DNA of 64,000 nt from Gracilaria domingensis (lineage: Eukaryota; Rhodophyta; Florideophyceae; Gracilariales; Gracilariaceae). Position 1 is the first letter of the stretch. Every line of letters begins with the position of its first letter. Below, piece by piece: positions 1 to 52,902 of the stretch. Location of the stretch: positions 1 through 64,000 of the forward strand of contig VCMS01000288.1 of assembly GCA_022539475.1 (NCBI GenBank), read 5' to 3'. The notes under the pieces were generated by a model, which worked only from the letters and a program-made list of their open reading frames with translations, made no database searches and was not told the DNA's origin. The position numbers were made by a program, and so were the translations under genes.

Positions 1-64
1 CCCGTAACGGGTACGCCGTTCATGGGGCTGAAGCCGTGGATTGCGACCATCCGAGGAAGCCAAG

Positions 65-495
65 TCTTAACTCCATTTTGAGGAGAACAATTTCATTCCT
101 TCTACTTTCCTGGCTAACAGGAATGTAATTGACCGGGTGCCAAAACCGAGAGCGGGGGAGTGGTTGACATGGAAGGTACATGAGCCAGGTAGTTCAGTAC
201 CAGGTGGGCAGTACATAAGACCGGAGCAGAAGTCGAGGAGTTGATGAAGGAGTTGATATGTCGCTTCACAAGACCGGGTGATCTTGTCATGGACATGTTC
301 GCGGGAACGTTTTCTACGGGTATGGCGTGCCTATCGCTGACAAAGCATAGGAAGTTCTTGGGGTGCGAGAAGAATAGGCCATGTTTCAGCCATGCGAAGC
401 ACCATCTAACGACTCTTATGGCCGAAGTTATTCGGGGGGGAAGAATGACATCCTGGTTGAACAGGAGTGGTGGATGCGGCTTCAACGACCTATGA
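65..495 (+). pseudogene. DNA N4/N6-methyltransferase domain, partial and frame-disrupted
   Basis: The reading 193-495 contains motif I of site-specific DNA methyltransferases of the N4-cytosine/N6-adenine class (PF01555 type). It reads PGDLVMDMFAG, then ACLSL and FLGCEKN, matching the family pattern PGDlVLDpFaGsGTT...rFiGiE. Just upstream, in a neighbouring frame, are a proline/tryptophan-rich stretch (about 77-230, with RVPKPRAGEWLTW) and RPEQKS followed by VEELMKELI, which fit the usual RPxQKPVELxxxLI lead-in. The family binds S-adenosylmethionine with motif I. The catalytic DPPY-type motif is not visible and would lie left of the window. The FAG in place of FAGSG is slightly degenerate. 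At least one frame change lies inside the domain. It reads on toward the SET-like region downstream, so the two may be one gene. Confidence 0.6.
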
Positions 496-639
496 ACGGG
501 TTCCACATCGGGACCGAGGTCGGCTTGAATGGGAGGCTCCATTTGGGTACCCCCAGTACCAATGATGCCTGGACATATTACTCAGTTCCTAGGAAGATAC
601 TGAAGGACTGGGACTTTGTCGACAAGTGTGGAGAGCGTA

Positions 640-1299
640 CTGTAGATCTTTGGGAGGGGAAGTACCGAGGAGCTCTGAATCTTATGGATATGCATATGCT
701 GTTGACTGTTGAAGCCAATCGCTATCGCTTACATATAGCATCTTCTAAGATCCGACATCCCCGTGCTGGTATGGGGTGTTCACGGAACATAAGATATTGG
801 ATGGGGAAACTATCTGTCATTTCTATGAACTTTGGTAACACGGATCTGACGAACCGGAAGGAAAGACACTTACGTATGGAAGTGGCTGTCTCGGAGCAAC
901 TCCAGTGCGGTACAAGTTGTTTTCTATGATGGTCACTGTGACTGGTACGGAGTTTCTGCACCTGAGAACAGACCAGGACAGGCTCAGGATAGAAAGGAGA
1001 GCGAAGTCTACATTGTCCCGGCGCCTTTTTGTATCGGGGGCTACATTAACGACGCCGGATATCATGCCGGGGATCCCGATTTATCGGAGCCCCGGTCAAA
1101 CAGGACTCGAAGTGCCAATGTGCAGGTGGTGGAAGCGAAGTCCGTGATACAGTTTAAGTCAGACCTTTCTAACTATGCTCTACTTCGTTGTAGAGCAGTA
1201 AGAATATTGAGAGGTGCGAAGAGTGTATTCGACTACGGAGAGCAGTACGCTTGGACTGGCTCTGACATTGGAGCAATAGATGAGTTCAGTAGCGAATAA
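640..1299 (+). pseudogene. SET-like histone-methyltransferase domain, frame-disrupted
   Basis: Three overlapping plus-strand readings carry SET-domain hallmarks in the right order. Around 745-830 there is GMG followed by VFTEHKILDGETICHFYE, matching the GxGvfa...i.kGe.i...Y start of SET domains. From 850 to the TAA at 1297-1299 one open frame of 149 codons holds GGYINDAG, then SANVQVVEA, then RAVRILRGAKSVFDYGEQY. This mirrors the SET pattern of an INDxxG-like segment, xNVxFV, and AxRpIxxGEExxxDYGxxYW. SET proteins transfer methyl groups to lysines using S-adenosylmethionine. The frame changes at least twice, so the gene is broken or the sequence has small errors. It follows the DNA-methyltransferase motif without an obvious gene boundary. 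I am fairly sure of the family, less sure of activity. Confidence 0.6.
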
Positions 1300-1514
1300 A
1301 GTAAATAGCTTGTGAGTGTTGCAGCTGCCTGCAATACGCGTTGTTGTACATGTACACTGGAGCTCTTCATCTGTAACGGCGATATTTGCGACCCATTGGG
1401 CACCTCAAATTCCTAAAAAGCAGGAACTGCGGAGTCTCCCGGAATATCTGAACCATGCACCCCCCCCCCCCCTCCCCAACAATTTCGTTTCATTACCCTG
1501 TTTATCTCCACAGC

Positions 1515-3908
1515 ATGGGTATAACGCCGAGAAAGCGAAATAGTACGCAGCGGAACAAGAGTGGACAGAAGAAGAGAAGAGCATCGGATGATACGAATCA
1601 GGCTACAAGCACCGCACTTCCTAAACGGAAGTCGTCCTCGACGAAGGAGAGAGTCAGTGGGCGTCCTTCTACAGGACTCTCTCGCCCATCTCGCAGCGGA
1701 GCGTCTTCCGGGATTGCGTCAAGAATTCGTGGATCAGCGAACGATGTCGTGCCGTCAACTGCCGATAATGCAAATCGTGCATCTGTCTCTGCTCCTCAAG
1801 AAGATGAGGTAACTCGGCCCAGCGGGTCAGGACAGGAGGGCATGACAACTGGAACCGAAGAGGTTCGTATGACACCAAAACTTCATGTCCCCGGCCGATA
1901 TCGAAGACCGGAGCTACTGGGGCGCGGGTTACGCCGCCCAGTGGATCTGGACAACAAGGGACAATGACGAGAAGTCGTGAGAGTCCTAGTATATTAAGAT
2001 CGTCACGTCCATCCCTCTCTTCTAGAACTGGGGCCGCTATGAATCGTATCATGCCTCGCAATGGGTCCGGACAAGGGAGAAAGACAATAAGAAATCGAGA
2101 GACAACTGATAGACGAGTTACTTTTCGACCTTCCCCTCTTTCCAGAACGGGGGCCGTTGCAGCTCGTACGAGGCCCAATTCATCTGATATACCATGCCAT
2201 GGAGGAGGACATACACGGGGGTTGGAGCTCGGAGCCGTGCCAAGGGTGGACACAGAACGCCTGCAGCCTCTCGTGGCTAAGGCTATGGCACATGAGGATA
2301 GTTCCGATAACGAAATAACACCGAATCCTGCGGCATTACCGGGGCCTGTCGCCGAAGAAGCTAGGGAAATATCGGAAGATATCCAAACTGGTGTGAATTC
2401 AAGCTCTATGAACAGACCTGATCTTTTAAATGAACTGAATTGCTTGAAAGAAAAGGTTAAGACGCTACAAGAGGACTTGATGGTTCGGGGAATTCTAGTG
2501 AAGGTCGCCCAAGAGCAGAGTACGGCTTTGAAAAGAGGCTTGAAGAGAAGGATCTAGTCATTGAAGGGCTAAGAGGGGCACTGAAACAGGAGGGAGATAG
2601 GAGTACACGTGCTGGTGAACCTGGGCAGACAGGTCGAAAGAAGCATAAAATTGAGGTGTGCGACGAATTTCGAGGGGTTGCTCGAGCAGTGTATCACAAC
2701 ATGCTGACGTGGGCAAGGAGAGAAACAAGTGAGCTATGGCTCGAAGGTGAGTCGCTCACCCGAAATTGGGGTAACCGTGCCGAGAAGGTGGAAGACGCAA
2801 CTGAGAGTGGGGAAGGGCTTATTGAGCCGGAGGAAGGTGGTTCATACATGGTTCCTAAAAACCCCGTGGAGCTCTTGGGCAGTTTTGGCATGTTCACACC
2901 GTCGGTAGAGGGGGGCCAGATGCTTTGCTGAAGAAAATGGTTGAAAGCGAGTTGAAGGAGTTGAGCTGGGAAGGTATTAGAAAAGCATCTCTTACCGACA
3001 GGTGTATACTGGAACTTTGTGCAGATATGTGCCTTAGGCAGAGAATGCGGCAGACCATGAGTGACGTCGTGGGCGTTCGTAAGAGAAATACGAGGGATAA
3101 ACTATTTCTGCTCCTGGGGTACGATCTGATTTGGAGAAGATCAAAGCTGGTAGAAGAGAATGCTGACGAACTCACAATGCAGTTGAAGGAAGCGCAGGAG
3201 AACATACTGCGTCTTGACGAAAATGGTGTACCGAACACTTCATGGTGGAGAAAAGCCCCATTTCTTCGTCTAAAGTACTCCAATGCGGACAATGTCGAGG
3301 ATATGCCGACGGAAGATCAAGACTTGTTCTTCCGAAACCGTGTCGGGGTACAAGTGCTGAAGGAGTTTATTGGGTATGATGTGGAAGACAAGGATACGGG
3401 CACCTTTTTAGATGGCACAATACTGTTGCTCGCACGTTTGGACGCTTGGGTGTTGACGGTTGTGAGCCTTCTAAGTACGGATGTGTCAAGGGGTGGCCAG
3501 AGACAGAAACTGTTTACAAAGAAGTTTGCCGAACTGCTACCTCTGTGTTTAAAGAATGTTCTGGGGGATGTTAGGCAACGTGTCTTGAGGACCAATTCCA
3601 GCGAGTTTCATAATTTTGGAACGACAACGGAAGATTGGACTTAGGTTCTTGGTAATGACATGAGAGAGGCTACATTTGGATATCGAATGCCGTCGAACGG
3701 AAGACTTTACCTCACTGTGAAAGAACAATTTTTTATTGACAGTGTGAGCCGAAGATTGGGGTCTATTAGCGATTGCTTCGTTGGTGAATGCGAGGAAGGG
3801 GATATGGAGTTCAAGGAAATGGACATGAACGATTTCGGAATTAACACAGGATCACAAGAAAAGGCACCACAAGGTGAACATGTAGAAGATGGAGCCCTTA
3901 ATGTTTAA
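1515..3908 (+). pseudogene. Unrecognised basic/coiled-coil protein gene with internal repeats, frame-disrupted
   Basis: I do not recognise the family. The most likely start is the ATG at 1515 (MGITPRKR), preceded by a pyrimidine-rich run ending in CAG. The N-terminal third is basic and Ser/Arg/Thr-rich and contains three imperfect 40-residue repeats. The middle (about 2420-2600) is a leucine-heptad coiled coil (LNELNCLKEKVKTLQEDLM, continuing in the next frame as KRLEEKDLVIEGLRGALKQ). The C-terminal part (2925-3908) is acidic to neutral, with WEGIRKASLTDRCILELCAD and a second helical stretch. The reading moves between frames about three times and has one in-frame stop near 3642. At least one shift falls in a run of G. 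It ends at TAA 3906-3908, overlapping the transposase stop. It could be an accessory gene of the transposon. Confidence 0.45.
1815..2177. repeat. Three imperfect 120-bp tandem repeats inside the coiled-coil gene
   Basis: Units begin near 1817, 1937 and 2057. Each contains a version of cccagtggatctggacaaca followed by a segment ending in ccagaactggggccgc. The period is 120 bp (40 codons) apart from a one-base slip between the first two. The plus-strand product repeats SRTGA...NGSGQ...RETTD, and the minus-strand reading is open across all units as well. Confidence 0.75.
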
Positions 3909-6900
3909 GGCTGTACAAGATCAACGTGCTCAGTTGGTCCTTCATCTGAATCATGATAGAATCGATTGATGTAGAATCGGTGTTGGAACCATTGAAGTGG
4001 AGGACAAAAAGGTGGAGCAGGGTAGTTTGATCGAACAACATGGACAGTTCCCTGTAGTGCAGAAGCCGGAACCATCCCGTACCAAGGAGTTAACTCTACG
4101 ATAGTCTCCGCTTTGGAATGACGAGGGAACGGAAGAGTGTGGTTCTTCTCATCGTTTGTAGCCCACCGTAAAGATATGCATTTCAATATGTGGTCGATGT
4201 TTGTTGCGGGGGGTAAAACCTCGAAATACCGGACGAATGCCACCTCTGGTGCGGTAAGTGCAGAATCAAGGAGAGATATTCGAATCAGAGCGACTACCTG
4301 GGCAACCCAAGTCTCTGAATCTTCTCCGCTTACCAATACAGTGGAAAACTTTGGCTTTCTACTGGGACCAAATGCTGGAGAAGCGAAGACACGTTGGATG
4401 ATGGGGTATTTGGGTCGTCCCAGCTTAAGTGCCTTAGAAGACGAATCGAAGTGTTCAAGAGTCAGAACGAAACCGCCTTTCACGACGGCCGAATTCACCA
4501 GAGTTATCCTTGTCTTTTCTGGGAAGTATGTAATAGAGTGCTCATCCAGTGTTTCTTTCACGAGACTGAGGAAAGGAGGAAGGGCCTGTTCACCAGTTTG
4601 ATCAAGAATCGACCTTGTGTCCGTACTTGAGAACATTTCTCTAACAGCAGTCCATGTTTTTGAACTGGACATACTTGAAACACAATGTTGAAGAGCTCGT
4701 AAAGTGAAAGAACGCCCTCTCATTGCAAACCGAGGAAGCTGTGTGGAAGTTCCTGGTAAATCTGGATTACGCTGGTAAGGAGTATTGCCATTCCATTGCT
4801 TTCTAACATGTCCGTGCTCAATGGAGCGAATAGTCTCCTCCACAGCCGTTGCTGTTCTTCTGGACGTCTTTTTGTAGTGTCTTTTAAATAGCAGGTGTGC
4901 ATGTTCGTATATGCCTGCGTCGTAATACTTGATACTTCCCAGACGGCGAATATCGTCCACGAGATGATCGAGAAGATGAAACTTCAGAGTTCCCAGTCTG
5001 GAGGGATGAAAATCCGCCAGAGTCTTTGTTGCGGAACGCTTGAAGGCTTCAATCTCCGAACTAAGACACAGGAGAGAGCTTTCAGTCCAATACGGGTCAC
5101 GATTGTATCTGAATAAGGTCGAGAGCAAGTCCGAGTACTGAGAGAAAACGGTTGTGATTGGGGCAACGTCCTGTTCTCCACAGCATATGTCAAAGAATGC
5201 TCCTATGAAGGGAAAGACCATGTCAAGTGCTTTGTAGTTTTTGGCCTCCAGCATTCCACGGAGACCGTCTTTCGTGGAGATACCATTCAAAGATTTGCCT
5301 TTCTCCTGCGTGGAGAAATCGATATGTAAACCTTTGGCAAAAGAATCGCGTTCTATGGCAGCTAGAATTGCGTTTGCATGGTTGAGGAGTTGGGTGCGTA
5401 TCGTTCGAAATGAACGCGATGCAGATGTTCCTATTGTGGTGCACAGGGTGTCTGACTGCAGTCTCTCGATTGTCGCCGTTTTTATCAACTTTGAGATGCC
5501 GAGATGCAAGTTGTGTAATGGTTCGAATGAGAACAGACTGTATGGAGACAATCCCGGGATCATTCCAAGGCTTACGGAAGTTTCGAGGAACGAAGGAATG
5601 AGAGATATGGAATTTGAACGCATCAGAGTATCCGCTTGAGATCTCCTCTCCCTCGCACGACGTGGACGTCTTTCCGCCTCGTCTTTTTGTGCATGTTGCA
5701 AGATAGCTGTGTATGTCTTTCGGATGCTTTTCGTGTGCTTTTGAGAACGTCCGTTGAATGAGGTGGGAATAGGACTGCATAAAGATGAGCGAGGGGCTTT
5801 GCATCTATGACACGGGCTTTCCGTTTTGGTCCCATGAAGAATGGACAGAATGTCCTTAGCCTCAGGAATATCCGCACAATAACTTGCAAGCAGAGGATGG
5901 CACACTCGACTTAGTTTGTCTTCCCCGATGAACTGAAAACCTTTCTGCGTGAGATTTAGAATGGGCTCCAGGACTTGACGAAGAGATTCTTGAAGGATTT
6001 GCATCCTGGACTCGCGTAGAGACTTGCTAGAAACAAATGGCATTGCGTCTGCTTCAGATGCGGAAACCTCGATCAGTGTGGTAGGGAAGTATGCCACTAC
6101 TGTGAGGTCATCACGGATACACTTACGGCGAAGCTGGTCGGAGAAGTTGAGAAATATGAGGTGAAGAGGATAGGCGGTAACCGATGTTTGCTTTAGAGTT
6201 GTTGAAGACTTATCGGTGTATACCTGCAGAAGACCTACGAAAGATTCACTGTAACTTATTTCTTGGGAGTACCACACTATTCTACTATCCAAAGAGCCCA
6301 TGACCATTTCCTTAAGTTTTGAGGTGGCGTCTCTTGCGAGAGAGCCGGACATGGGGTGAGATATTTTCGTGGAGTGGGTCTGAGGTATAGGGTGGAAGAA
6401 TGTGTTTTCGTTGTTAGCCAACTGGAGCTGTTTCACAAGTGTCTGAACGGGGTCTCTTGTGTAGAGGGTGGCGCTGAACTTACATCCTTCTGGCGAGACA
6501 GTTCTGCGATTGAAACCGTCCTTTGAAGCGTATCGTTCGAAAATGGCCTTCTTCAGTTCTGTACAGCGCTTGGAACTTGTTATGGTCTCGTTGAATCGCT
6601 TTTGCGAGAATCGCGGGTCCCGAAGTAGCCCAATTAGCTCGTCCGCCTCACGATGACCAAGGTTGGAAGCTATTGAAGCCAGACAAACCGTGAGATAATC
6701 CATATGCAAATCACCGAGGGCCTCCTCAGAAGGCACTGGGCGGGAACTGCTTCCGTGTTCTCGCTCTAATGACGCAGGAGCCGGGGAAGGAGAAACACAA
6801 TGCGAAGTGTCCGGAATGGGAGGGGCGCACGGAGTGGGGTCGACGATGTCCTCGGACACTGGAGGCTCGGGAAGGCGAGGGGCAGTGACCGTTTCGGAAG

Positions 6901-7177
6901 ATGCGGGCGCGGGTGCGGAAAGCTTGAGACGCTTGCTTCTCCGAATGGGCCGGCTATTGTCGTCTTCCAGCGCTGCTTTCAGACAAAACGGGCAAGGGTT
7001 GACATGCTGTTGAAGGGATAAGACTCCTCGGCGAGTAACGAAGGGGCACCCACGCTTCTTATGTGTACAGTAGTAGACCATGGGAAGAAGAACTGAACGA
7101 GAAACGACGACAAAGACTGCAAGGGAAGGGCGTCCGAAGGGAGAAGGAGGTCGAGCGACAGTCAAGATCGACGTCAT
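3905..7177 (-). CDS. Plavaka/CACTA-superfamily DDE transposase, apparently intact
   Basis: One uninterrupted frame of 1090 residues. Residues 33-66 (MVYYCTHKKRGCPF...CPFC) form a Cys/His zinc-finger-like motif. Residues 75-150 are a Pro/Ser-rich linker. The catalytic core resembles Plavaka/CACTA transposases: YTDKS with Asp322, the YPLHLIFLNFS segment, CHPLLASYCADIPEAK with Asp436, a CHRCKAP zinc knuckle at 456-462, FEPLHNLHLGISK at 551-563, FHLLDHLVDD at 733-742 and DAGIYEHAHLLFKRHYKKT with Glu758. Such enzymes cut at terminal repeats to move the element. An A/T box near 7195-7200 lies only about 20 nt above the first ATG, so the true start may be Met33 (7081), which would put the zinc finger at the N-terminus as in relatives. 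Family confidence is high; the exact subgroup (Plavaka versus KDZ) is less certain. Confidence 0.8.
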   Translation of the reverse strand: MTSILTVARPPSPFGRPSLAVFVVVSRSVLLPMVYYCTHKKRGCPFVTRRGVLSLQQHVNPCPFCLKAALEDDNSRPIRRSKRLKLSAPAPASSETVTAPRLPEPPVSEDIVDPTPCAPPIPDTSHCVSPSPAPASLEREHGSSSRPVPSEEALGDLHMDYLTVCLASIASNLGHREADELIGLLRDPRFSQKRFNETITSSKRCTELKKAIFERYASKDGFNRRTVSPEGCKFSATLYTRDPVQTLVKQLQLANNENTFFHPIPQTHSTKISHPMSGSLARDATSKLKEMVMGSLDSRIVWYSQEISYSESFVGLLQVYTDKSSTTLKQTSVTAYPLHLIFLNFSDQLRRKCIRDDLTVVAYFPTTLIEVSASEADAMPFVSSKSLRESRMQILQESLRQVLEPILNLTQKGFQFIGEDKLSRVCHPLLASYCADIPEAKDILSILHGTKTESPCHRCKAPRSSLCSPIPTSFNGRSQKHTKSIRKTYTAILQHAQKDEAERRPRRARERRSQADTLMRSNSISLIPSFLETSVSLGMIPGLSPYSLFSFEPLHNLHLGISKLIKTATIERLQSDTLCTTIGTSASRSFRTIRTQLLNHANAILAAIERDSFAKGLHIDFSTQEKGKSLNGISTKDGLRGMLEAKNYKALDMVFPFIGAFFDICCGEQDVAPITTVFSQYSDLLSTLFRYNRDPYWTESSLLCLSSEIEAFKRSATKTLADFHPSRLGTLKFHLLDHLVDDIRRLGSIKYYDAGIYEHAHLLFKRHYKKTSRRTATAVEETIRSIEHGHVRKQWNGNTPYQRNPDLPGTSTQLPRFAMRGRSFTLRALQHCVSSMSSSKTWTAVREMFSSTDTRSILDQTGEQALPPFLSLVKETLDEHSITYFPEKTRITLVNSAVVKGGFVLTLEHFDSSSKALKLGRPKYPIIQRVFASPAFGPSRKPKFSTVLVSGEDSETWVAQVVALIRISLLDSALTAPEVAFVRYFEVLPPATNIDHILKCISLRWATNDEKNHTLPFPRHSKAETIVELTPWYGMVPASALQGTVHVVRSNYPAPPFCPPLQWFQHRFYINRFYHDSDEGPTEHVDLVQP

Positions 7178-7450
7178 GCTGAGAACGGAGAATATATTTT
7201 GAGTTTAAATCACGTGCTTTCGTTCAAAAAGGAACGTAGGTACACGTCGACCTCAACACAAGGGTGTACTTCTCGTATTATCTACCACTGGTTATAAACC
7301 TGTGGTTTCCCAACGTTGTACGCTGTACACTTGTCCAATCTCGCACAGAAAAATAAATCTCTTCCCTTCGCCGCCGCCGCCGCGCCTCCGACGTCCGAAC
7401 TTCCGTTACCGTCGTGAGCCATGCCATCGATATCATCGCGTTATACTCCG

Positions 7451-7525
7451 CTCCGTCGTACTTTTTCCCGCCCTCCACTTTATGGAGGCTTCATAAAGTA
7501 GAGGGCGGAAGAAAGTAGGACGGAG
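7451..7525. repeat. 75-bp near-perfect hairpin
   Basis: The left arm starting ctccgtcgtacttttt pairs with the right arm ending aagtaggacggag. The arms are about 35 bases with roughly four mismatches around a very short loop. It lies about 270 bp upstream of the transposase start, so it could be a foldback remnant near the transposon end or an independent MITE-like repeat. Confidence 0.7.
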
Positions 7526-7803
7526 TCATCCGTATCTCAGGGATGTATTCCGTGCAGTCTTTTCGTACGTTCTTCCATATCCTTCCACGTATCTTTGCTC
7601 TAAACTAACCAATCCTCACCGCGTTTCTTCGCGCTCTGCGACATGGAAACGGCAGGAAATAAGCTAATCACCCTCAACTTCTTCTATTTGTTCAAGATAT
7701 AGAACGAGTTGAAGGGTGAAAACGGGAACCCGGTAACCCAAACCGACGACTGTAAGTACGCGACCAATAGTTCATTTCGTTGCGCCATAGGCTCTAGCTC
7801 TGC

Positions 7804-8141
7804 CTGTTCGGGATAGGCGATTCTGGTACTTGGTTGAGACATAGATTTCTGTCTCGTTTATCGCATCTTGCGGTATGTTTGCTGCATGGGCATTCTCGGT
7901 GTCGTTGCTTGTGAGTTCTTGCTTCGAGACCTTTCGCGTTTTACGATGAATGGATTGCTGGTAATCTAACCGATCACTTTCCTTCTTCTTCTTCCTTTTG
8001 CGAGTTACTAGGTCCCTCGACTTTTCTAGCGCAACGTTTCTGTTTTGCTTTATCAATGGTACGTTCCATCGCAATTCAAATGTTTCCAACGGAGCATTGA
8101 CTAACTTATGGATACTTTCTGCTTGCGTATACAGGTAAACG
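7804..8141 (-). repeat. 338-bp direct repeat, copy 1 (coding-like on the minus strand)
   Basis: This segment begins ctgttcgggataggcgatt and ends at cgtatacaggtaaa, and is repeated at 8218-8555 at about 90% identity by eye. On the minus strand copy 1 stays open through 124 codons (8146-7772) with a Lys/Arg-rich core (TRKRKKKKESDRL). Copy 2 does not stay open, so the protein reading is weak. A short version of the junction motif (gaccaatagttcattt, 7762-7777) also flanks copy 1 on its left. Confidence 0.75.
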
Positions 8142-8210
8142 ACCAATTTTATTTCATCTCTCCAGATCCATCATCGATCTTGAGAGACAAAATGAAATTG
8201 GTCGTTTTAC
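8135..8210. repeat. Inverted repeat joining the two 338-bp copies
   Basis: The left arm gtaaacgaccaattttattt (from 8135) pairs with the right arm ending aaattggtcgttttac (to 8210), about 28 bases each with a few mismatches. A similar half-site occurs at 7759-7780. The arms look like terminal inverted repeats of adjoining copies of a small DNA element placed head to tail. Confidence 0.65.
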
Positions 8211-8217
8211 TGTCTGA

Positions 8218-8555
8218 CTGTTCGGGATAGGCGATTCTGGTACTTGTTTGGGATATAGGCTAGATTCTCGTTTATCGCGTCTTGCGGTATGTTTGCTGCA
8301 TGGGCATTCTCGGTGTCCTTGCTTGTGAGTTCTCGCTTCGACACCTTTCGCGGTTTACGATGATATGGTGGGCTGGTAATCTAACCGATCCCTTTCCTGC
8401 TTCTTCTTCCGTTTGCGAGTTACCAGGTCCCTCGACTTTTCTAGCGCAACGTTTCTGTTTCGTTTTATCAATGGTACGTTCCATCGCATTTCAAATGTAT
8501 CTAACGGATCATTGACTAACTTATGGATAATTTCTGCTTGCGTATACAGGTAAAT
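8218..8555 (-). repeat. 338-bp direct repeat, copy 2
   Basis: This is the second copy of the 7804-8141 segment. It keeps the same ends and the rcgtatacaggtaaa junction, with scattered substitutions and small changes that close the minus-strand reading frame seen in copy 1. The 76 bp between the copies is an inverted repeat. Confidence 0.75.
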
Positions 8556-8595
8556 GACTTTTGATGCGGACGTAGCTCACGAGTTGCAGGTGCAG

Positions 8596-8681
8596 GTTCC
8601 TCAAGTAGGGAACCATGCATCTGGGCATGGTTCCCTACATGAGGAACGGAGAGGATGAGGCGCTTCGCCCCTCATCCTCTC
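8596..8681. repeat. Two adjacent hairpins
   Basis: Hairpin 1 has arms gttcctcaagtagggaacca (from 8596) and tggttccctacatgaggaac (to 8647), 23 bases each with one or two mismatches. Hairpin 2 has arms gagaggatgaggcg (8649-8662) and cgcccctcatcctctc (8666-8681). No gene is seen here. Confidence 0.75.
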
Positions 8682-9239
8682 GGAGTGCGTATGTGTTCTA
8701 CCGATACAGCCGATGGTGGAGGTGCCCTCTGCGGCATCTGCCGCAGATTGCGCCTACACCCGCTCCATTATGGGGAAATGGTACATGTAATATAGCGAAG
8801 TAGTGGTTAGCAAAAGCGGTCGATAGAAGAATAGATACGAATAAAACGGTATGATTTCAGAATGGGCATCATCTGTACTAGCACTAGTATTCCATGCGTT
8901 GCAGGGTATCATTCCGCAGAAGGTATCGTGTAATGTGCACCTTAATGGAAACTGAACCTAGACTTCGCGAAATACCGTTCAGGTAGCCCTCGACTAAAGA
9001 ACTAGCACGAGTGGAAAACCCCCCAGTATTTACTGCACAGAGATTCTGGACGACCCAAGCAATTATCTGCAAATTTTGAAATAATTGATCTCGATATTTT
9101 TTCAAAAAATTTAATGGACGACCCTTGCCAATTTCTGGACGACCCTCGCCAAAAACTAGCATCTGCAAGAGACAGACGACAACACATTCCGGGTTCGGAT
9201 CCACGTCATCGTTCCACTCATAATTTTGAGTTCCCTATC
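8682..9239. other. Intergenic stretch with a short repeated motif
   Basis: No convincing gene was seen. The motif tggacgaccc occurs three times between about 9048 and 9150, twice followed by a variant of ttgccaa. The surrounding short open frames have no recognisable protein features. Confidence 0.4.
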
Positions 9240-25500: not shown

Positions 25501-28500
25501 CTCGCAGTAAGAGTTACAAAGGAAAGAAGAACGGCCATGAAGAGAAGCATTCGGATCGTGGAAATGGAAATGATGGTGTGGCTGGGATCGTCGCTGGAAT
25601 GGTAGTGGTTGCCTTTGAAGATGAAGAGGCACCAGTAATGGAGACACTTGATGTACCTGACGCGAATGGATGTCGAGAGAACATCGTATTGAAGGAAGCC
25701 GGATACATTCCAAATCACTGAGTTCCTGAGGGACAGGAGTTCTCATGGTACTTGGACTCAGGGGCATCGAAGCACATGACTAATAGCCAGAGCTACTTCG
25801 TTCATGGCGTGCATTCCTCCACGAAGAAGACTGTATCAGTAGGAGACGGTGCAAAGCTGCGAGTGAATGGACAGGGTACTGTAGAATGTTGGATTCGTGC
25901 AACAGAAGGTCAACGCGAGAGGATTGTTCTTAACGACGTACTCTACGTGCCGGAGCTTATGTGTAATCTGCTGTCCGTGAGCGCTATTCGTCGTCGCGGA
26001 TACATGACGGTGTTCATGTCTGACAATGAAGGATCAGGGATCACGGTAATTGTGGACCAGAGTAGCCTGAGGATTCTGACAGTAGGGAAAGAACTCGATG
26101 AAGGACTCTACGAAATCAAGCTTGCTCCGTCTGAAAACCGTGGAACTAACGTTTTGATTGCGCAGGACGGAGAAAACTATGCGCTAACCTGGCATAGACG
26201 TCTCGGCCACGCAAGCTTAGACTACATTCGGAAGACTCTGCGAATCATCAATGGCGTACGACAGGTATCGATACACGACTTCGGACACTGCGAACCGTGT
26301 GCGGAAGGCAAAGCTACTCGAGCACCGCGGAACCCAAGCGATGCATCGAAGAAGAACATGGAGGTTCTTGACCTTGTCCACTCAGACGTCATGGGACCCA
26401 TGAACGTTGAGAGCTTGTCAAAGGCGAAGTACGCGGTGACCACTTATGAAGACAAGACTTGTCTGTCAGCAGTGCGGTTCACACGAACACGGGCGCAAGT
26501 AGGAGACCGAATCAAGGACATGATCACCTTGTTTGAGACTCAGTCTGGACGAGTGCTGAAGCGGTTCAGGTTTGACAACGCCGGCGAGTATTTGTCCGGT
26601 GCAATGCAGAACTGGTTGAACAGCAAAGGAGTGATCATGGAACCGAGTCCGGCATACAGCCCTGAGTCCAACGGAAAGGCGGAGAGACTCAATCGTACAC
26701 TGAATGACAAGGCTCGAACGATGTTACGGACGATTGAAGGGACACCACGCAGTGGCCAACTGTGAGCAGAAGCCGTAAACACAGCGAACTATATCCGGAA
26801 CCGCACATTCGTTCGACGCGAAGGGGAGCCTCACATGACTCCGATAGAGGCTTTCACTGGTATCAAGCCTAACCTAGCGCACTTACGAACCTTCGGGGCA
26901 CAATGTTATGTACACATCCCGAAAGAGCTCCGTCAACGTAGTGCAAAGTACGAGAAGCGTGCCATCAAGGGGATCCTTGTCGGGTATGAGAGGGGCAAGT
27001 GCTATAGGGTGTACATTCCGAACGAGAACAAAGTGATTGTGTCTCAAGATGTCACATTCAATGAGAAGGTGACTGGATGGAACCCTGAATCTGAGACTGA
27101 ATCTCTCCCTGGACCAGAGAAAGTCGACCTCAGTGGGGTAGACCACTGTGAAGAGGATCATGAAGTACAGATGGATGTGAAGCAAGACGATATGGATGAA
27201 ATGGAATCAAAAAAGCAAGAAGATCAGAAGCAGGAAAATTTGGTGGATGATGAAGTGAAGGAAGAAGAAGAGCTTGTGGACGCACAAGTGGAGTATTCCT
27301 ACGACCCGGAGCTTGTGACTCACTACCCAGATGACCCAAGAAGGTCCAGTCGATTCCGCCAGGCACCCAATCGATACACACCAGACGCCACCATGGCATT
27401 ACTCACTACTAGTGCGTTGGGGAACCCTGTGGACGACAGTCCACTGACTGTTCGTGAAGCTTTGCAGGGAAACGACGCCGAAGACTGGCGAGCATCCATG
27501 CGTGAGGAGATGGATCATATGGATCAGAGAGCTGTATGGGAACTGGTTCCGCCTCCAGAGAACTGCCGACCTATCAGTAGCAGGTGGATTTTTCTCAAGA
27601 AGCGAGATGAGATAGGCCAGATAGAGCGATACCGTGCACGATTGATAGCTCGAGGCTTCTCACAGCGTCCTGGACTGGACTATGAGGAACTGTTCTCCCC
27701 TGTTGTGAAGTATAGTACAGTTAGAGCCGTACTGTCGCACATGGTGGCCAATGATATTGATGCTATTCAGTTTGATGTTAGAACAGCGTTCCTGTATGGT
27801 GATCTCACTGAAGACCTTTACATGAAACAACCGGAAGGCTTCATGAATGCACAATGTAGGGATCACGTGTAAAAGCTGAAGAAGGCCATTTATGGCCTAA
27901 AGCAGGCATCGCGCGCATGGAGGACCAAGTTTAAGGCTATCATGAAGAAGATTGGCTGCACTGTGTCTGAGAACGACCCTGGCCTCTTCCTTTACAACAG
28001 TGGTGAGGGACGGGTGACCATTCTTGTGTACGTAGAAGACGGTATCATTGTCGGCAAAGGAAGAGACATGTTGCTGGAGTTTGTGAAGAAATTACAAGCC
28101 CATGTCGACCTTAGGGTCTACGATGAGCCACGGAAGTTCCTCGGGATGATCATCGAACGTAGCGCTGACAGGAAATCACTCAGTCTACACAATCAACCGA
28201 TAATAGAGCGCCTGGCTGCCCAGTTTCATGTAGAGAATGGCGCCAAAGTTAACGTTCCTCTGCAGACCACAATCTTGGCAAAGGCGTCAGATGTTAATGA
28301 AGATGTTGGAAATCTCCCTTACAGAGAACTGGTAGGCTCCTTGCTGCATCTGGCAAACACTGTGCGTCCTGACATCGCCTTTTCGGTCTCTTATCTCTCG
28401 CGCTTTATTCATCAATACTCGCGCGAACACTGGAGTGCGGCTTTGAATGTCCTCAAGTACCTTAGCACCACGAAAGATGCTAAGATTGTGTATCGTGCTG

Positions 28501-29003
28501 ATGATACTGTTGGAATTGAAGGAACTTCAGATGCAGACTTTGCTGGCGATAGAGAGGACAGGAAGTCCACTAGTGGCTTCATCTTTACGTATGCTGGAGG
28601 CCCTATTTCGTGGAGAAGCAAGAAGCAGACTGTTGTAGCGCAGTCTACTCTAGAAGCGGAAGAGGTTGCAATTTCCTTCGCTGTTCGAGAGGGAGTGTGG
28701 CTACGACGAATATTTTACGAACTGCGTGGACACGAAGCTCTGAGAAGTATTGACATCTTCGGAGATAATCAGGGCACGATTTCTTTTTGTGCCATGATGA
28801 AGTCCTGAACGAGAAAACAAAGCACATCGAAGTGAAATATCATCTCGTGAAAGACTCTGTGGAACGTGGACTTGTGCGAGTTGGCTACAGGAGAAGCAGT
28901 GAGTCAGCTGCAGATTTATTTACGAAGCGCCACAACACGAAGACGCATAGACGTCTTTGCGAGATGTTTGGTATGACATTGGTGCGTTTGGATCGGGAGG
29001 GAG
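25501..29003 (+). pseudogene. Element A pol region: protease, integrase, RT, RNase H
   Basis: The protease motif YLDSGASKHMT lies near 25755. The GAG-pre-integrase block is WHRRLGHASLDY, near 26190. The integrase core (LVHSDVMGPM, FDNAGEYL, AYSPESNGKAERLNR) spans 26360-26690. RT lies at about 27470-28130 (FDVRTAFLYGDL, KAIYGLKQASRAW, YVEDGIIV). RNase H lies at 28500-28990 (SDADFAGDREDRKSTSG, HIEVKYHLVKD). This domain order is diagnostic of Ty1/copia. The reading is broken in several places. Confidence 0.85.
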
Positions 29004-29241: not shown

Positions 29242-30083
29242 TGTAGAGCAAAAACACTCCGCGGAAGGAGACAAAAACCACCCGCGTGCGCGGTACTCTC
29301 AAGGTGTTCAGACTTGCTCCTTATGAAGGGTGGCGCAGCGGAATAGCCCCCCGATGAGGTCGACACTAGCCGGGCGTAACTCCCGGCGACCTCTTCCTGA
29401 CTTACAGACGGAGGTAAGGGATGAACCCAAAAGAGGCGGTAGTAACCGTATCAACGGGAAACCCAAAGGAATGGGGAAATAAAGGGGAAAACAGGCCGTA
29501 TGTACGGGACACAGACCCGAAAAGAGGGAACAACAGAACAACAACAACAAGAGGCCTGTACACACAGGGCGGAGAACAACCGTAAGGGCGGGAAAACAAA
29601 CAGAAAACAACAGAAAACAAACAATAAATATAACCGTAGGTAAACGGGAACTCCTCAGAGACGCGAGGTGGATAAGTACTACCGTAGACGGCACGGAAGC
29701 TCTCCAAGAAGAAATCGCGATCCCACGCAGGCGAGATACTTAGAGCCGAACACTCGGTTATCTTTACTTCCCAGGAGGGTGGCCGTGAGGCCAACCTTTA
29801 AGTAGGGATCACTATACTATCTTAAAGTATCAACTATACCGGTACACGTCCGGACAATACACTACACGTGTACCGTGACCCTCGGCTCAGAGGGCAATCC
29901 GCGTGCGCGGACACATCCACCATGTGGACACCTGATGTGTCCACCATCCAGGCCAACAATCTATACTTTGTCCTGCGACCGTCAACTCAGTCCTCAACAT
30001 TCTGAGGTAACACTCCGGGAAACCCGGTAAACCTGCAAAAAGCAGCGCGAGCACCACCAGAAATCCGGGCGTTTTGCTCTACA
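29242..30083 (-). repeat. Element B LTR (3' side of the element)
   Basis: 842 bp with inverted ends TGTAGAGCAAAA/TTTTGCTCTACA. It shares all landmarks with 49240-50081. Open frames on its minus strand (up to 130 codons) recur in both LTRs and are not genes. Confidence 0.9.
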
Positions 30084-32330
30084 TCTCTCCCTCCTCAAGA
30101 TTCGGGAACCTTCCCGAATCCACGGGTTTCTTCCTGGAAGAGGCGAGAAGCACAATGTCCGAGAATTCGGTCGAAGCGAGCGAAATCCAATCCGATATCC
30201 CTCCTCGGTTCACCTAGACAACGAGCGACAATCCGTACAAACGGTGATTCAACACGACATCCGACCCAACGACGCTGGTATATCCACTCAGTGGTCATCA
30301 CCACAAGATGCGGAGTGACAAACACATCCGTAGCAAACCGGTCGCTGGTGGAACGGTCCAGTTCCAACACACCCCACCAGTGGGTTCAGCAATTAACCGA
30401 TACCATCGGATTCCGCAATGCGGTTAGCACGCGACATCCTATTCAGTAGCACTCAGCATTAGTGCACCTCCACTGCAGGAGTTCCTGTCGTGAAAACGGT
30501 ACTCCTTCCGGCCTCCATCAGATACTTGGAGACTTCCAGAGCTCCTGGCGCTTCACTATCTTCTCGTGTTGCGAGCCAGGCGAACCGCGACTTCGCGGCG
30601 CTTGAGACGAACAAACAAACTGATACTATCGGAAAACTCAGGTAAAGTAGCATACAAGGACCGTTGATCGCGGCATTCCAAGTTAGTTAGACCTTGGCTA
30701 GGGTTCGAACCACCTGGGATCCGGTGACGAACGGTAGCGAGACGCTCCAGTTCGCACTGGTACCCAACGATAATCACTGAACATCCAGGACAACACCAAG
30801 GGCTTCGAAGCCTTTTGGTACTTCTCCGCAGTGCGGCGTTCGTACTCAGCACACGCAGTGTCCCGTCGCACGGCGACCAAATAACCCATGACTTACATGG
30901 AAATCCTCACTTCTCGTGAGTATCCCAAAGACAAAAAGACATCCCGCCCAACACCGGACATAGCAACACTCTCCGTCCATTGGCGGTAACATCCCTCATG
31001 AGGGTCTCTGCACGACACGAGTCCCTTCCGTACTCCATCGCGGAGAAGTTCCACAGCGTGGCAACCGCGCGTTGCTGACTCGAAACAGTCGAGTTCATAC
31101 CAGACCACAACAGAGACATACTCATTCTGAGTGGCACTCAGAGTCCGAGGACCACAGCAGTCCATCCCAGTACAGTGGGTACATCATCCAGACATCCTGG
31201 TATTCCGTAACCAACGGTGTGCGTATCTCCCAGAGAACTCTGGAATATCCAGTAGATGTCCTGAACAATCAGGCTTTGTTCCCAGTAACAAGGGTCTACT
31301 GATAACTTCAGCCCGGACCAGAGACTGCTCTCCTCGAAAAGAGTCGATCCGCAATGCGGTATTTGATTAATCAGATCCTCCTTCCCAGATGCCAATCCCA
31401 GCAGGGCTCAACTTCCTTCGCAAGGCTCAATCCACTGAGCGGTCCTCGTAAAGTCCATTCACCAATGGTGCTCCGCCGTGACAGACACGGTAAACGATAT
31501 CCAACACATCCTAGGTTGGTTTCCGAGAATATCGAATACGTACAACGAATCGGTCCTTCCTCACTGAGGTTCTTTCTCCATGACGCATGGAGTCATTCTC
31601 AAGTTTCAACCCGTACTGACCGTCAGCAACGCATGACGAATTGCGTGATTTACCTCAAGAGAGGACCGACCGCTATGATTATTGTTCCTTCCGTGACGGG
31701 GGGTCTTTCCAGGACAACTAGTTCGCTCCTATGTGGAGTTAGTGCTCTACGTGATGGTTTTTTCCACGCAGGGCCGACACCCAGAATATGGCGACTCTCC
31801 ATGATTCCATGGTTTTTCTCAGTGAGCTTGAGTCCAGCGACAGCCTCCAGTAAATTACCAGAGAAGTTGCCCATCCTCATTGAGGCTCTCCTCAAATGAG
31901 GTGTTAACAAAAAAAATTTATCTGCTTTGGCGGTCTGCATCCAAGTCCGCAAAGGCAGCGGCTGCTTCGCACGGCCCCTGACTGGAGTCATTCCCGATAA
32001 AGTCGGTTCCAGTCCAGAAATCACCGCCTTTTCCCAGAAATTTATCCGTCTAGAGACGGCACAACGAACAGAACACGTTCTCCTGACTACGGGGAGGTGC
32101 CGCCCAGCATGAACGGACTCTTCGTTGCGGAGTTATAACATGTTGAACACAAGTACCTCCGTTGATAGGACGGATAAAATGCCAAGGGCCAAAATCATCT
32201 TAATATGCACAATGCACATTGCTAGCACGGCTTTCCAGACATGCAATGCATTCCAATATATTGGTCGTACCACAGTACACGTGGGGAAGTGCAATTCAAT
32301 TTCATTGCTCCTTCCCTCTGCCAAGTAGAT
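30084..32330 (-). other. Element B interior, 3' part, unrecognised
   Basis: By position this should hold RNase H and integrase, but no catalytic motif could be recognised in any minus-strand frame. It is probably strongly decayed. The last 150 bp (from about 32180) begin the CACGTG-rich repeat array that resumes at 38285. Confidence 0.4.
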
Positions 32331-32680
32331 TGTCGGTGAACACGAATAGATTTCAGCTGTGCTGTGCTACAGAACTCCGACGCAGGTCGGAGCTTCGTTC
32401 GCGGGAACGCAGGTAGCGATTGTTTCACAACAAACAGTACAGATACTTTACAACTTCGATGACCCCCCTTTCCTTCCTTCGTCGGAAAAGGGTCCAGCTC
32501 CTTAACTGGCACGCCAAAGGACAGGAGTTTGCACAAAACTGCAACTGTCTGACGTACAACTAGATAAGTGAATGTTGTTCAATTCAAACGCAGAAAAATA
32601 AAATTACAACCCAATACAATTAGAACAATTCAAGATGATACATTACTTCATTGTCAGCAGAGCTGACAGTTATACGGACA
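32331..32680 (-). repeat. Element C1 LTR (3' side)
   Basis: 350 bp, nearly identical to 37919-38268. The 60 bp following it (32681-32740) are repeated at 33118-33177. Confidence 0.85.
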
Positions 32681-32778
32681 CTCGGGCATCTTCAACGTCA
32701 GACATTGCAAAACGACGCCTCACTTGGACTCCATCAGTCCTTCACATTCAGTCATTGCTCATTGCCATGTACAGTAGA

Positions 32779-33117
32779 TGTCGTGAACACGAATAGATCA
32801 GCTGTGCTGTGCTACAGACTCCGACGCAGGTCGAGCTTCGTTCGCGGAACGCAGTAGCGATTGTTCACAACAAACAGTACAGATACTTTACAACTTCGAT
32901 GACCCCCCTTTCCTTCCTTCGTCGAAAAGGTCCAGCTCCTTAACTGCACGCCAAAGGACAGGAGTTTGCACAAAACTGCAACTGTCTGACGTACAACTAG
33001 ATAAGTGAATGTTGTTCAATTCAAACGCAGAAAAATAAAATTACAACCCAATACAATTAGAACAATTCAAGATGATACATTACTTCATTGTCAGCAGAGC
33101 TGACAGTTATACGGACA
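32779..33117 (-). repeat. Extra copy of the C1 LTR, run-shortened
   Basis: 339 bp, the same sequence as 32331-32680. Almost every difference is one base missing from a run of two or more identical bases. The spacer 32741-32778 resembles the sequence left of 32331. This pattern suits a sequencing or assembly error more than a true tandem LTR. Confidence 0.75.
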
Positions 33118-36100
33118 CTCGGGCATCTTCAACGTCAGACATTGCAAAACGACGCCTCACTTGGACTCCATCAGTCCTAATCACCCATTGCAACACTTCC
33201 AAGTCTATTGCTCCATTGTCCATGATAGATTCTAGAGCCAAACATCTTCCATGCTTAGTCAAACCATCTGCGGGGTTATCGGCGCTACGGATCCAACCAA
33301 TGTTGCTGATTTCACGCGCAGTGTAGGCTTCTCGAGCAGACTCGATGTCAATCATCAATCTTCGTTCCGTAGTTGTTGAGTTGCGGATGAGAACTTTGAA
33401 TAGACTGTCATAGTCTGTATACATACTGAGAGGTATGCGACGCCCCAGGATTCGTTCCAAATCGTGACGCAACGTGTACGCAAAATCGAACGCGTCAGCA
33501 AAAGCGTAGACCTCTGCGCCCAAGACGGAGCGCACTACGCGTTTGGACTTGTAACTTGCGTAATGAAGAATGTTGCAACGTCCGGACTTGTCACAAAGCA
33601 GCACCAAGTACCCCAGTTGAGATCGGTTACCTTCAGCGTTGGCAAATGATGCATCCGCGAAAACCTTGATTGACAATGATTGGTCGTCCAAAGATTGTTG
33701 GTGTATGCCACGCCGGGGGTGTTGCTTAACGTACTTGATGATTCCATTGATGGCCTTGAGTACTTGTCGCGACCACATACGCTCTGTTACCTGAGACAAG
33801 AGGTTCACTTCGGCAGTGATGTCCGGACGAGTGTGAGAAAGCCAAGCGAGCTCCTGACGGCGACAGCGGAAGTCGTGAAAAGAACAGTCCTTCGGTAGGG
33901 GTTTGAGTCCATTGCAATACCGCTCTTGGTGGATGAGGTATCCAACGTCCGTTGGCGCAATCTGTAGACCAGCAAAAAGGAAGGAGTCATACTCACGCGG
34001 TTTGGTATCAAAGCGCTGTTCGGTAGACTTCGTCTGATCATGAAATGATTGGTTGCCGGCGGTAATGGTATCATCAACGTGTGTACCCATCAGGCCAACG
34101 AGTTTACCATGGATGGTGCGAAAGAAGAATTCCAGATCGCTTGCCACCGGACGCATGAGAAGATCCTCGCGTAGATGGCGGGCAAAGTTAGCATGCCAGT
34201 AGTCACCACTATCGGAAAGACCATAGAGGGGTTTCAACAACTTCAGCAGTTGGTTGTTAGAGAGGCGAAATTCCTTGGCTGGTCGCACGTATGCATCGCG
34301 CATGAGTTGGCCGGAGGACTGCAAGTAGGCCTGGGAAATGTCCTGAGACCATAGGCGAAAACTAAAAATTGCAGCAAGCGCGATGAGCATCCAGATGGAA
34401 CTGTGTTTCACTGTAGTACTCTGGTGGACAAGCAAAGCTTTCTCAGCGTCAGTGTGTCCTTGTACCACAAAGCGGGCCTTGTACACCTCATCATTGGTAC
34501 CTTTGTTCTCGATCGACAGAACAAAACGACCGCCCATCACATTTGCGTCTGCGGGGAGATCCTCCTTGCATACGATTTCAAATACGCCACGTTCCGCAAG
34601 TCCGGCGAGTTCTTTTGCCTTCGCGGCATTGAAATGAGGCAGAGAAGGACGATGATCACGGGGAGTGAGGACGTCAGTGATGTGTACGCGCGTTGGAGGT
34701 GTAGGATCGGATCGAAATGCATCGAGGGCGCACTTGAGACGTTCCAGTTCCCGATCGGCAGATGTGTCGGGGGTGGGAAGAATTTGGGAGAGGTTAAAGT
34801 GCTTCACAGTACCGTTGTAGTCCACAAAAACTTCCTTGTCGCGAACACGTTGAACAGAAAAAGGTCCTTCCCAAGATCCACGGTCGAGTGCATCGCGCTT
34901 CGGAAAGACATAAATATTATCCCCAGGGTTGATCAGATAGTGTGTCACAGGAGGTAGGCGAGATTGCAGGGCTTCCGTAACGCGAAGACGTGCCGTGATG
35001 GTTTCCATTTCGCTTCGTGCCTTCTGCAAGGCTGCCATACGTTCTTTCTGCTCTGGAAGACTTGCGTTGCGCACAGGAAAGGTGGGGTAAGTTCCATAAA
35101 CAAGTAAAGTTGGTACGTACCCTTCGGGACCCATAGTATCGTTCATACCCTTAACGGCAAGACGGAGTGCGACTTCGGGATCAATGGAGGGGTGGTCGGT
35201 TCGAATGACGTTAAAGATTCGACGTAAGGGCGCATGGTATCGTTCTCCTAGACCAATCGACTTGTGACTCTCAATACCCGAAATTTGTACGTCGATGCCA
35301 TGCAGCGAGGTAACTTTCTCCCAGTATTTTGACGTGAACACTTTTGCAGCGTCGGCGCGAATGCGATGCGGATATCCAACGTAAACAGAGGCCCAACCTT
35401 CGACGAAGGCATCCCAGATGTCCTTGGCGGATTCACCCTTCAATAGAATCGCGTTTTGATACCTTGTGTGGGTGTCCACAATGTGTAGGATGGGATTACC
35501 GTCAATCCACATAAGGTCAATGGCCACTTCGTGGTTGAATATCAATTTGTCTGGCGGAATGGAGACGCGAAAGCGGTAAGGACGTGGAGAGGTGGATTTG
35601 CATGTGCGACAGTGGGAGGCTATCTCCTCAAGAATCTTCCGGGTATCCGGGTTCGCATCGTTAAGACGGGCCTTGCGCAGCAGGTTGTACAATCGTTGTG
35701 CATTCGGGTGGAAGAAATGGAGGTGGAGCTTTCGTAGTTCTGAATGCGTGAACAAGATTCTGCTTGTGTTCCATTCCACAAAGAGGTGCCCGTGTTTCCT
35801 GGTGATAGGCATCTTCCATCCAGCACGGCGGCTATCCAATACATTTTCGACGTTGTCAGGCACTAGAGATTCTTTGTCCATGATATCCAGACCAATTAGC
35901 AGCGGTACGTCGGCGGAGACAACATCGATCATGATGGAGAGAAAACCTCCGTCAGGTGTTGGCATGCGTATGTTGACTTTCCCAAGACTGTTCCGAATAT
36001 CGTTGCCAAATCGAAAGGAATACCATGAGTGCTGTAGCCTCATCTTGAGCTTATGCTCCAGATGGTAGGCCTTGGCTTGACGCAGACCAATGACGGACTT

Positions 36101-36340
36101 CTGTGCTCCACTGTCAAGACATGCTCCTTCAAATCGCCTAGATGAGTATTTGGGAAGGCTTTTGAGTGATATGTTGTGTACGTGAATCAGGCGACGTCTT
36201 GGTTCTCGTGAGATCCGATAGGATGCTGTGTGACGACGTGATCCGATCCGACGTGAACGAGGGACAAGAAAACGGTTCTTATCTGGTGCCTTCTTCAGCC
36301 TTGTGGTCAGAACCTGGCGGCTAGGTAGGTTCTGCTTCAA
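33107..36340 (-). CDS. Element C1 pol (protease, integrase, RT, RNase H)
   Basis: A 1077-codon open frame of a copia-type pol. The retropepsin motif is ACLDSGAQKSVIG. The GAG-pre-integrase block has CRTCKSTSPRPYRFR. The integrase has IDLMWIDGN, RADAAKVFTS and HKSIGLGERYHAPLRR. RT follows with WSQDISQAYLQSS, KPLYGLSDSGDYW and GTHVDDT. RNase H has VFADASFANAEGNRSQLGY, YKSKRVVRSVLGAE and SADNPADGLTKH. The integrase core with GLGERYH is shared with C2, so both belong to one lineage, distinct from A. The stop codon lies just inside the 3' LTR. It looks whole. Confidence 0.85.
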   Translation of the reverse strand: MKQNLPSRQVLTTRLKKAPDKNRFLVPRSRRIGSRRHTASYRISREPRRRLIHVHNISLKSLPKYSSRRFEGACLDSGAQKSVIGLRQAKAYHLEHKLKMRLQHSWYSFRFGNDIRNSLGKVNIRMPTPDGGFLSIMIDVVSADVPLLIGLDIMDKESLVPDNVENVLDSRRAGWKMPITRKHGHLFVEWNTSRILFTHSELRKLHLHFFHPNAQRLYNLLRKARLNDANPDTRKILEEIASHCRTCKSTSPRPYRFRVSIPPDKLIFNHEVAIDLMWIDGNPILHIVDTHTRYQNAILLKGESAKDIWDAFVEGWASVYVGYPHRIRADAAKVFTSKYWEKVTSLHGIDVQISGIESHKSIGLGERYHAPLRRIFNVIRTDHPSIDPEVALRLAVKGMNDTMGPEGYVPTLLVYGTYPTFPVRNASLPEQKERMAALQKARSEMETITARLRVTEALQSRLPPVTHYLINPGDNIYVFPKRDALDRGSWEGPFSVQRVRDKEVFVDYNGTVKHFNLSQILPTPDTSADRELERLKCALDAFRSDPTPPTRVHITDVLTPRDHRPSLPHFNAAKAKELAGLAERGVFEIVCKEDLPADANVMGGRFVLSIENKGTNDEVYKARFVVQGHTDAEKALLVHQSTTVKHSSIWMLIALAAIFSFRLWSQDISQAYLQSSGQLMRDAYVRPAKEFRLSNNQLLKLLKPLYGLSDSGDYWHANFARHLREDLLMRPVASDLEFFFRTIHGKLVGLMGTHVDDTITAGNQSFHDQTKSTEQRFDTKPREYDSFLFAGLQIAPTDVGYLIHQERYCNGLKPLPKDCSFHDFRCRRQELAWLSHTRPDITAEVNLLSQVTERMWSRQVLKAINGIIKYVKQHPRRGIHQQSLDDQSLSIKVFADASFANAEGNRSQLGYLVLLCDKSGRCNILHYASYKSKRVVRSVLGAEVYAFADAFDFAYTLRHDLERILGRRIPLSMYTDYDSLFKVLIRNSTTTERRLMIDIESAREAYTAREISNIGWIRSADNPADGLTKHGRCLALESIMDNGAIDLEVLQWVIRTDGVQVRRRFAMSDVEDARVSV

Positions 36341-37881: not shown

Positions 37882-37918
37882 TGTGGCTGGAAATCACGTA
37901 GTTACCGTTATTCCGGAA

Positions 37919-38268
37919 TGTCGGTGAACACGAAGAGATTTCAGCTGTGCTGTGCTACAGAATTCCGACGCAGGTCGGAGCTTCGTTCGCGGGAACGCAG
38001 GTAGCGATTGTTTCACAACAAACAGTACAGATACTTTACAACTTCGATGACCCCCCTTTCCTTCCTTCGTCGGAAAAGGGTCCAGCTCCTTAACTGGCAC
38101 GCCAAAGGACAGGAGTTTGCACAAAACTGCAACTGTCTGACGTACAACTAGATAAGTGAATGTTGTTCAATTCAAACGCAGAAAAATAAAATTACAACCC
38201 AATACAATTAGAACAATTCAAGATGATACATTACTTCATTGTCAGCAGAGCTGACAGTTATACGGACA
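37919..38268 (-). repeat. Element C1 LTR (5' side)
   Basis: 350 bp, matching 32331-32680 with about two differences. It contains a small hairpin, ttccgacgcaggtcggag. Confidence 0.85.
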
Positions 38269-38499: not shown

Positions 38500-38800
38500 T
38501 GATGGTCTACTTTTGGTCTGCGGTATGCAGCAGGGATGCGGTTTGCAAGGTTAGAAAGTCATATATTCAAAATCATGGGGAGACCCCTTTACTGATGCTG
38601 GAGTCCCTAGCTACTTAAGTACCCTGGGGACCGATTCCCAGTACTGGGTTATCGCTAAGGTTCTCAGGGGTTTATCGACTCCTGTTGGCCTTGGCCCAGA
38701 GCTGGCTGTAGGCGGGAGTTCGTAGCGATATGCGACAGCCGGGTGCGCGGCGTGCGAACACGCTCGCATCAAGAGCATGCTTGGCACTCGCTGAGCGTCA
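38500..38800 (-). repeat. Element C2 LTR (3' side)
   Basis: 301 bp, matching 44562-44862. On the minus strand a purine tract (aagaagaagag) lies just before it. Confidence 0.9.
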
Positions 38801-42304: not shown

Positions 42305-42312
42305 GTCTCCAT

Positions 42313-44526: not shown

Positions 44527-44561
44527 TGCGGAGAGCAATTAAGCAAAAGAGGTCAATCGAT

Positions 44562-44862
44562 TGATGGTCTACTTTTGGTCTGCGGTTTGCAGCAAGGATG
44601 CGGTTTGCAAGGTTAGGAAGTCATATATTCAAAATCATGGGGCGACCCCTTTACTGATGCTGGAGTCCCTAGCTACTTAAGTACCCTGGGGACCGATTCC
44701 CAGTACTGGGTTATCGCTAAGGTTCTCAGGGGTTTATCGACTCCTGTTGGCCTTGGCCCAGAGCTGGCTGTAGGCGGGAGTTCGTAGCGATATGCGACAG
44801 CCGGGTGCGCGGCGTGCGAACACGCTCGCATCAAGAGCATGCTTGGCACTCGCTGAGCGTCA
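44562..44862 (-). repeat. Element C2 LTR (5' side)
   Basis: 301 bp, matching 38500-38800 with about four differences. It is followed by the target duplication tagga. Confidence 0.9.
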
Positions 44863-50081: not shown

Positions 50082-50086
50082 GCTAG

Positions 50087-52886: not shown

Positions 52887-52902
52887 GGCGGCGCGTTGCC
52901 AA

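Follow-up and report, generated by a model that had tools for sequence, protein, structure and literature searches.

A Plavaka-type transposase gene converging without spacer on two broken genes, one for a DNA methylase followed by a SET-like region, in the red alga Gracilaria domingensis

The stretch of DNA analysed here (64,000 nucleotides, hereafter the window) comprises positions 1 to 64,000 of the forward strand of contig VCMS01000288.1 from Gracilaria domingensis (assembly GCA_022539475.1). In its first 7177 bases, an intact minus-strand gene for a Plavaka-type transposase meets, end to end, two broken plus-strand genes, the first of which encodes the C-terminal part of a DNA methylase followed by a region that appears SET-like. 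With modest confidence, the window is taken to hold the right side of a large Plavaka/EnSpm-type DNA transposon with several genes, which the left window edge truncates. A more specific proposal is put forward tentatively, namely a Plavaka family with a dual chromatin writer, in which a bacterial-type N4/N6 DNA methylase and a SET histone methylase would be combined in one protein and would place DNA and histone marks on the element itself.

The transposase was located at 3905..7177 on the minus strand, from the list of open reading frames (ORFs) and by Pfam. The frame is open from 7204 to the stop codon at 3905-3907, and the ATG at 7177 gives a protein of 1090 aa, uninterrupted by internal stop codons. 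PF18759 (Plavaka) was matched over profile positions 41-272 of 325 with E 1.1e-18 and 68.1 bits, above the curated cut-off of the domain at 26.3 bits, which bears out the claim of an intact Plavaka-type transposase made in an earlier sequence-only reading (the initial annotation). Residues 456-459 read CHRC, which fits C(2)C, and an HNLH candidate with a spacing of two residues is found at residues 555-558, given here as motif positions only. A possible Cys/His finger, read from the letters and without a library match, begins at residue 36. The plus-strand neighbour ends with TAA at 3906-3908, overlapping the transposase stop codon. The missing spacer is real, because among the plus-strand frames it is frame 3 that has the highest codon score as far as about 3900; the convergence without spacer described earlier was thus confirmed. 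A terminal repeat would not fit between the genes at this junction, and the absent spacer favours one single element.

The first plus-strand gene starts before base 1, and inside the window only the end of its methylase that binds S-adenosylmethionine (SAM) is present, assigned to 3..434 (frames 3, 2 and 1) as the C-terminal part of a permuted N4/N6 DNA methylase by Pfam, PDB and alignment. The frame-1 ORF 193-492 matched PF01555 at profile positions 168-216 of 221 with E 3e-10 and the solved adenine methylase PDB 5hek with E 2.9e-7, the best of such PDB matches, so that the DNA methylase proposed for this strand is upheld for the part within the window. The catalytic motif of this permuted class would lie before base 1. 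Searching phages with the joined methylase part (tblastn, E up to 1e-3) gave 83 records, all below 60% identity, with 33.7-45.8% among the best 15 of the 83. Two phage enzymes align with the SAM-binding end, and an intron as the cause of the frame change by the conserved 'RPEQKS' stretch of the methylase was rejected, the spacing to both enzymes being kept within five residues (a tolerance that counts the inserted X, in a comparison that covers this frame change alone). The motif order of the permuted class is given in PMC8885841.

The remainder of the gene, a linker and the SET-like region, was assigned to 440..1299 on the plus strand (frame 3, possibly 2, then 1; TAA at 1297-1299) by a motif test and by Smith–Waterman comparison with the solved SET domain PDB 5tuy. 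Judged by eye, it may pass through frame 2 at about 770-905, where the codon tracker keeps frame 3; this stretch was excluded from the comparison of codon use. The motif test used the pattern N(H/D) ... I..G ... (D/S/N)YG plus aromatic residues, composed after inspection of the sequence, so that its figures are flattering: one match across the six frames of the window, 0 of 100 in random 64-kb sequences with the dinucleotide statistics of the window, and, among 200,000 shuffled versions of the ORF peptide, 1 for the strict and 142 for a looser form. The tail of the pattern alone is common (32 of the 100 random sequences; 952 of 200,000 shuffles). Against 5tuy, the frame-1 piece scored 83, equalled by 1 of 2000 shuffles, and two joined readings scored 75, equalled by 6 and 3 of 2000. 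This piece also ranked first among 546 window tiles of 60-150 residues, followed by a retroelement-like tile (71) and by the frame-3 piece of the same methylase-SET gene (63). Library searches gave no SET match, neither to PF00856 (SET) in Pfam, searched at E up to 10 with the X-joined reading and its C-terminal piece and at E up to 1 with the other cuts of the region, nor in PDB by phmmer for the separate frames or the X-joined reading, nor in NCBIfam or PHROGs for the frame-1 piece, nor among plasmids for the region. With moderate confidence, the region is described as SET-like: motif order and Smith–Waterman rank speak for the SET domain proposed in the initial annotation, and the family and structure libraries did not return it.

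The second accessory gene, 1515..3908 on the plus strand, was delineated by frame tracking and runs through frames 3, 2, 1 and 3, with three frame changes and one in-frame TAG. No domain was recognised in it: there was no Pfam family for its pieces or for the X-joined reading, no NCBIfam match for one piece, and nothing better than E 0.083 for two pieces against PHROGs. Single-sequence structure prediction of one piece was mostly helical at a pLDDT of 38.1, too low to interpret, and the model of another window piece, at a mean pLDDT of 32.5, was unusable.

Both plus-strand genes are broken, in agreement with what had been noted of them. In 1-1299, codon tracking accepted four frame changes. 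In 1515-3908, its two higher penalties gave three frame changes plus the TAG, and its two lower penalties split one of these changes into two. Events at the extreme ends of the tracked stretches were discarded as end effects, and the training set took in the transposase itself. Within the transposase, the tracker placed a change at 4090 for penalties 4 to 8 and, with penalty 4 alone, further changes at 5656 and 5399. With other ORFs for training, an overlapping frame scored higher than the ORF frame, both in the last 60 transposase codons (6.5 vs 2.0) and across 5677-5378 (4.6 vs -2.7). These three events were not counted, because the ORF is open at all of them; if 4090 were counted, the plus-strand genes would hold 8 of 9 disruptions.

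Under the favoured reading of one transposon, the transposase would move the element by cutting at its terminal repeats, and the methylase-SET protein would once have marked the DNA of the element and nearby histones, thereby evading or steering host silencing. In the window copy this protein is dead, an indication that a single copy can do without the accessory genes or relies on those of other copies.

Several results weigh against a single element of this composition. The plus-strand genes carry 8 disruptions in 3693 bases and the transposase no accepted one; under an even spread over 6962 bases, all 8 would fall to the left of 3909 with a probability of 0.006, and the accessory genes therefore seem more decayed than the transposase. 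Neither the left end, which on this reading lies beyond the window, nor terminal repeats or target duplications were observed. The codon preference of the transposase is nearer to that of the retroelement-like ORFs (0.35 to 0.53; the labels are our own assignment) than to that of its plus-strand neighbours (0.28 and 0.31), which in turn resemble the copia-like ORFs (0.26 and 0.28) about as much as the transposase. The window did not yield a second copy, in that no blastn self-match touches 1-7177; the best translated match of this part elsewhere in the window has E 0.049. The similarity behind the SET label is weak. Giant transposons of the brown alga Ectocarpus, finally, frequently have a broken transposase, the reverse of the window (PMC12477816). 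The Plavaka element with methylase and SET domain that the initial annotation envisaged is accordingly retained in part, the zero spacer speaking for one element, the uneven decay and the unseen terminal repeats against it.

The strongest competing account, which we consider rather unlikely, is that two unrelated mobile pieces are joined at 3905-3908, a younger transposase-only Plavaka element having come to lie, by insertion or rearrangement, at the end of two older, decayed genes from another element. The uneven decay would be expected from pieces of different age, and fits equally a transposon lineage that does not need its accessory genes in every copy; the closer codon use of the transposase to the retroelement-like ORFs than to its neighbours likewise points towards two pieces. 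Against them stand the coding signal that continues on both strands up to the shared stop codons, including the last 60 transposase codons with the scores given above, and the absence of terminal repeats above chance, whether around the transposase alone or at the junction.

Terminal inverted repeats (TGT..ACA or CATCA..TGATG) together with target duplications of 2-3 bp were taken as the mark of Plavaka ends; termini of this group are given in PMC12730594, which also describes Plavaka transposases as similar to those of EnSpm. Repeats that exclude the plus-strand genes had been named in the initial annotation as the observation that would overturn its proposal, and this point was examined in part, within the window. 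In six comparisons, whose power is low where repeats are very short, no inverted pair enclosing the transposase alone rose above shuffled sequence: the score of 3850-3990 vs 7178-8800 was equalled by 217 of 300 shuffles, that of 3500-4000 vs 7178-8800 by 158 of 200, and that of 3850-3990 vs 7178-7450 by 256 of 300. TGTACA at 3912 and 7324 was tried as a pair of Plavaka ends and rejected, since the flanking bases differ and TGTACA occurs six times in the first 9000 bases. Five weak inverted pairs (I9, I10, I11, I12 and I15; 18-20 bases, 75-79% complementary) flank the transposase with their arms and enclose the plus-strand genes partly or wholly; they look like chance pairs.

Sequence or assembly errors as the source of the frame changes, with the accessory genes intact in the living genome, would be compatible with the other readings and are regarded as improbable. 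One tracked change (2911-2914) adjoins the G6 run of position 2910; a second was placed at 376, with a G7 run at 434 inside the overlapping open frames 378-495. The transposase region, however, holds a G6 run (4208) and seven runs of at least five, a number equal to that in the second accessory gene, and its ORF is open; moreover, one of the disruptions is a plain in-frame stop codon.

Codon use also bears on whether the plus-strand genes belong to the host. Their preferences are alike (0.46) and were compared with those of four window ORFs, named from the Pfam library where a name is given, whose non-retroelement class is our own assignment: to the kinase ORF the likeness is 0.26 and 0.45, and to the FkbM, DUF4419 and 59725-61893 ORFs it is -0.10 to 0.03, that is, uncorrelated. 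That these are decayed host genes which a transposon merely adjoins is very improbable: the single copy in the window and the kinase-like codon use would suit such genes, but the other three ORFs share none of this preference, and the N6_N4 methylase of bdelloid rotifers, a bacterial-type enzyme with a chromodomain, is reported in PMC8885841 to lack eukaryotic homologs and to align only with bacterial ones, so that a gene of this kind would not be an ordinary eukaryotic host gene.

Searches for relatives in contig collections found none of the transposase in viral_contigs, genome_contigs or plasmids, none of the methylase in viral_contigs or genome_contigs, and none of a piece of the second accessory gene in viral_contigs; the scans of viral and genome contigs were seeded by exact short peptides and address close relatives only.

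Several published elements share part of the arrangement read here as one transposon. Giant KDZ, EnSpm and Sola-1 transposons were reported from Ectocarpus in 2025 (PMC12477816). Among them, Sola1-1_Ec32 encodes a protein with ParB and N4/N6 DNA methylase parts opposite its transposase, with similar proteins cited for green and red algae. As in the window, the methylase gene lies on the strand opposite the transposase, and an element-marking role is proposed for both; Sola1-1_Ec32 belongs to Sola-1, whereas the window holds a Plavaka transposase and a SET-like region after the methylase, with the gene start (the ParB side) beyond the window. Enlarged red-algal EnSpm/CACTA elements likewise combine an EnSpm-related transposase with several genes, a likeness judged by size and number of ORFs: EnSpm families of 16-20 kb with 4-5 ORFs are cited for Chondrus crispus (PMC6431247), and giant EnSpm elements with accessory genes are described from red algae (PMC12477816). 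For the Plavaka giant repeats of Amoebidium, gene database matches in dinoflagellates and red algae are mentioned (PMC11244446); the cargo named there consists of tyrosine recombinases, in contrast to the methylase and SET-like region found here. In fungal Plavaka/KDZ elements with TET/JBP, too, a gene that acts on DNA methylation accompanies a Plavaka transposase (PMC12730594), but their enzyme oxidises methylcytosine, and no match to the TET/JBP dioxygenase family was obtained among the plus-strand ORFs of the window (Pfam, E up to 1). SET histone methylase genes on DNA transposons are on record for HarbingerS and MuDR elements of the oomycete Phytophthora, as cited in PMC12730594; these belong to other transposase superfamilies, and the cited passage names no DNA methylase.

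For algae, the idea of a transposon that bears an N4/N6 DNA methylase has already been published, and the earlier statement that no described transposon has the present combination was too strong in view of these methylase-bearing algal and SET-bearing Phytophthora elements. What remains of it concerns the pair: methylase and SET together in one transposon were not recognised among the matches listed, judged by titles and the beginnings of abstracts, with Petroll 2025 (Bostrychia genome) and Iyer 2011, to which the algal methylase elements are credited, lying outside this set. The pairing of a methylase with a SET-like region beside a Plavaka transposase is plausibly a new variant. If intact sister copies exist, the element would be a transposon writing a DNA and a histone mark at once, which might reveal how such elements negotiate host silencing; without them, it would be one more decayed giant transposon of the kind reported from algae.

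Further features of the window were collected by repeat search and from the ORF list. Just beyond the transposase start, an imperfect palindrome with arms of 25 bases lies at 7451..7525, followed by a direct repeat whose two copies, each of about 345 bases, are 91% alike and flank a hairpin (7799..8558), and by three short hairpins (arms of 23, 15 and 22 bases) clustered within 170 bases at 8596-8760. Neither tRNA genes nor Rfam families were found in the window. Three consecutive ORFs in one frame at 25722-28808 resemble a single polyprotein interrupted by stop codons, which we take to be of the Ty1/copia type. A direct repeat of 845 bases, 98% alike, occurs at 29242-30086 and 49240-50084, 20 kb apart. 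The retroelement-like unit at 32302-38268 contains the minus-strand ORFs 33107-36352 and 37030-37893 between flanking repeats (32328-32680 and 37916-38268) that are 99% alike, with a further repeat copy at 32752-33178, and is probably a young long terminal repeat (LTR) element. A second such unit at 38500-44862 carries the ORFs 38798-42409 and 42730-44067 between repeats that are 98.7% alike, and an uninterrupted DUF4419 protein is encoded at 51484-52980 (Pfam, E 1.1e-66).

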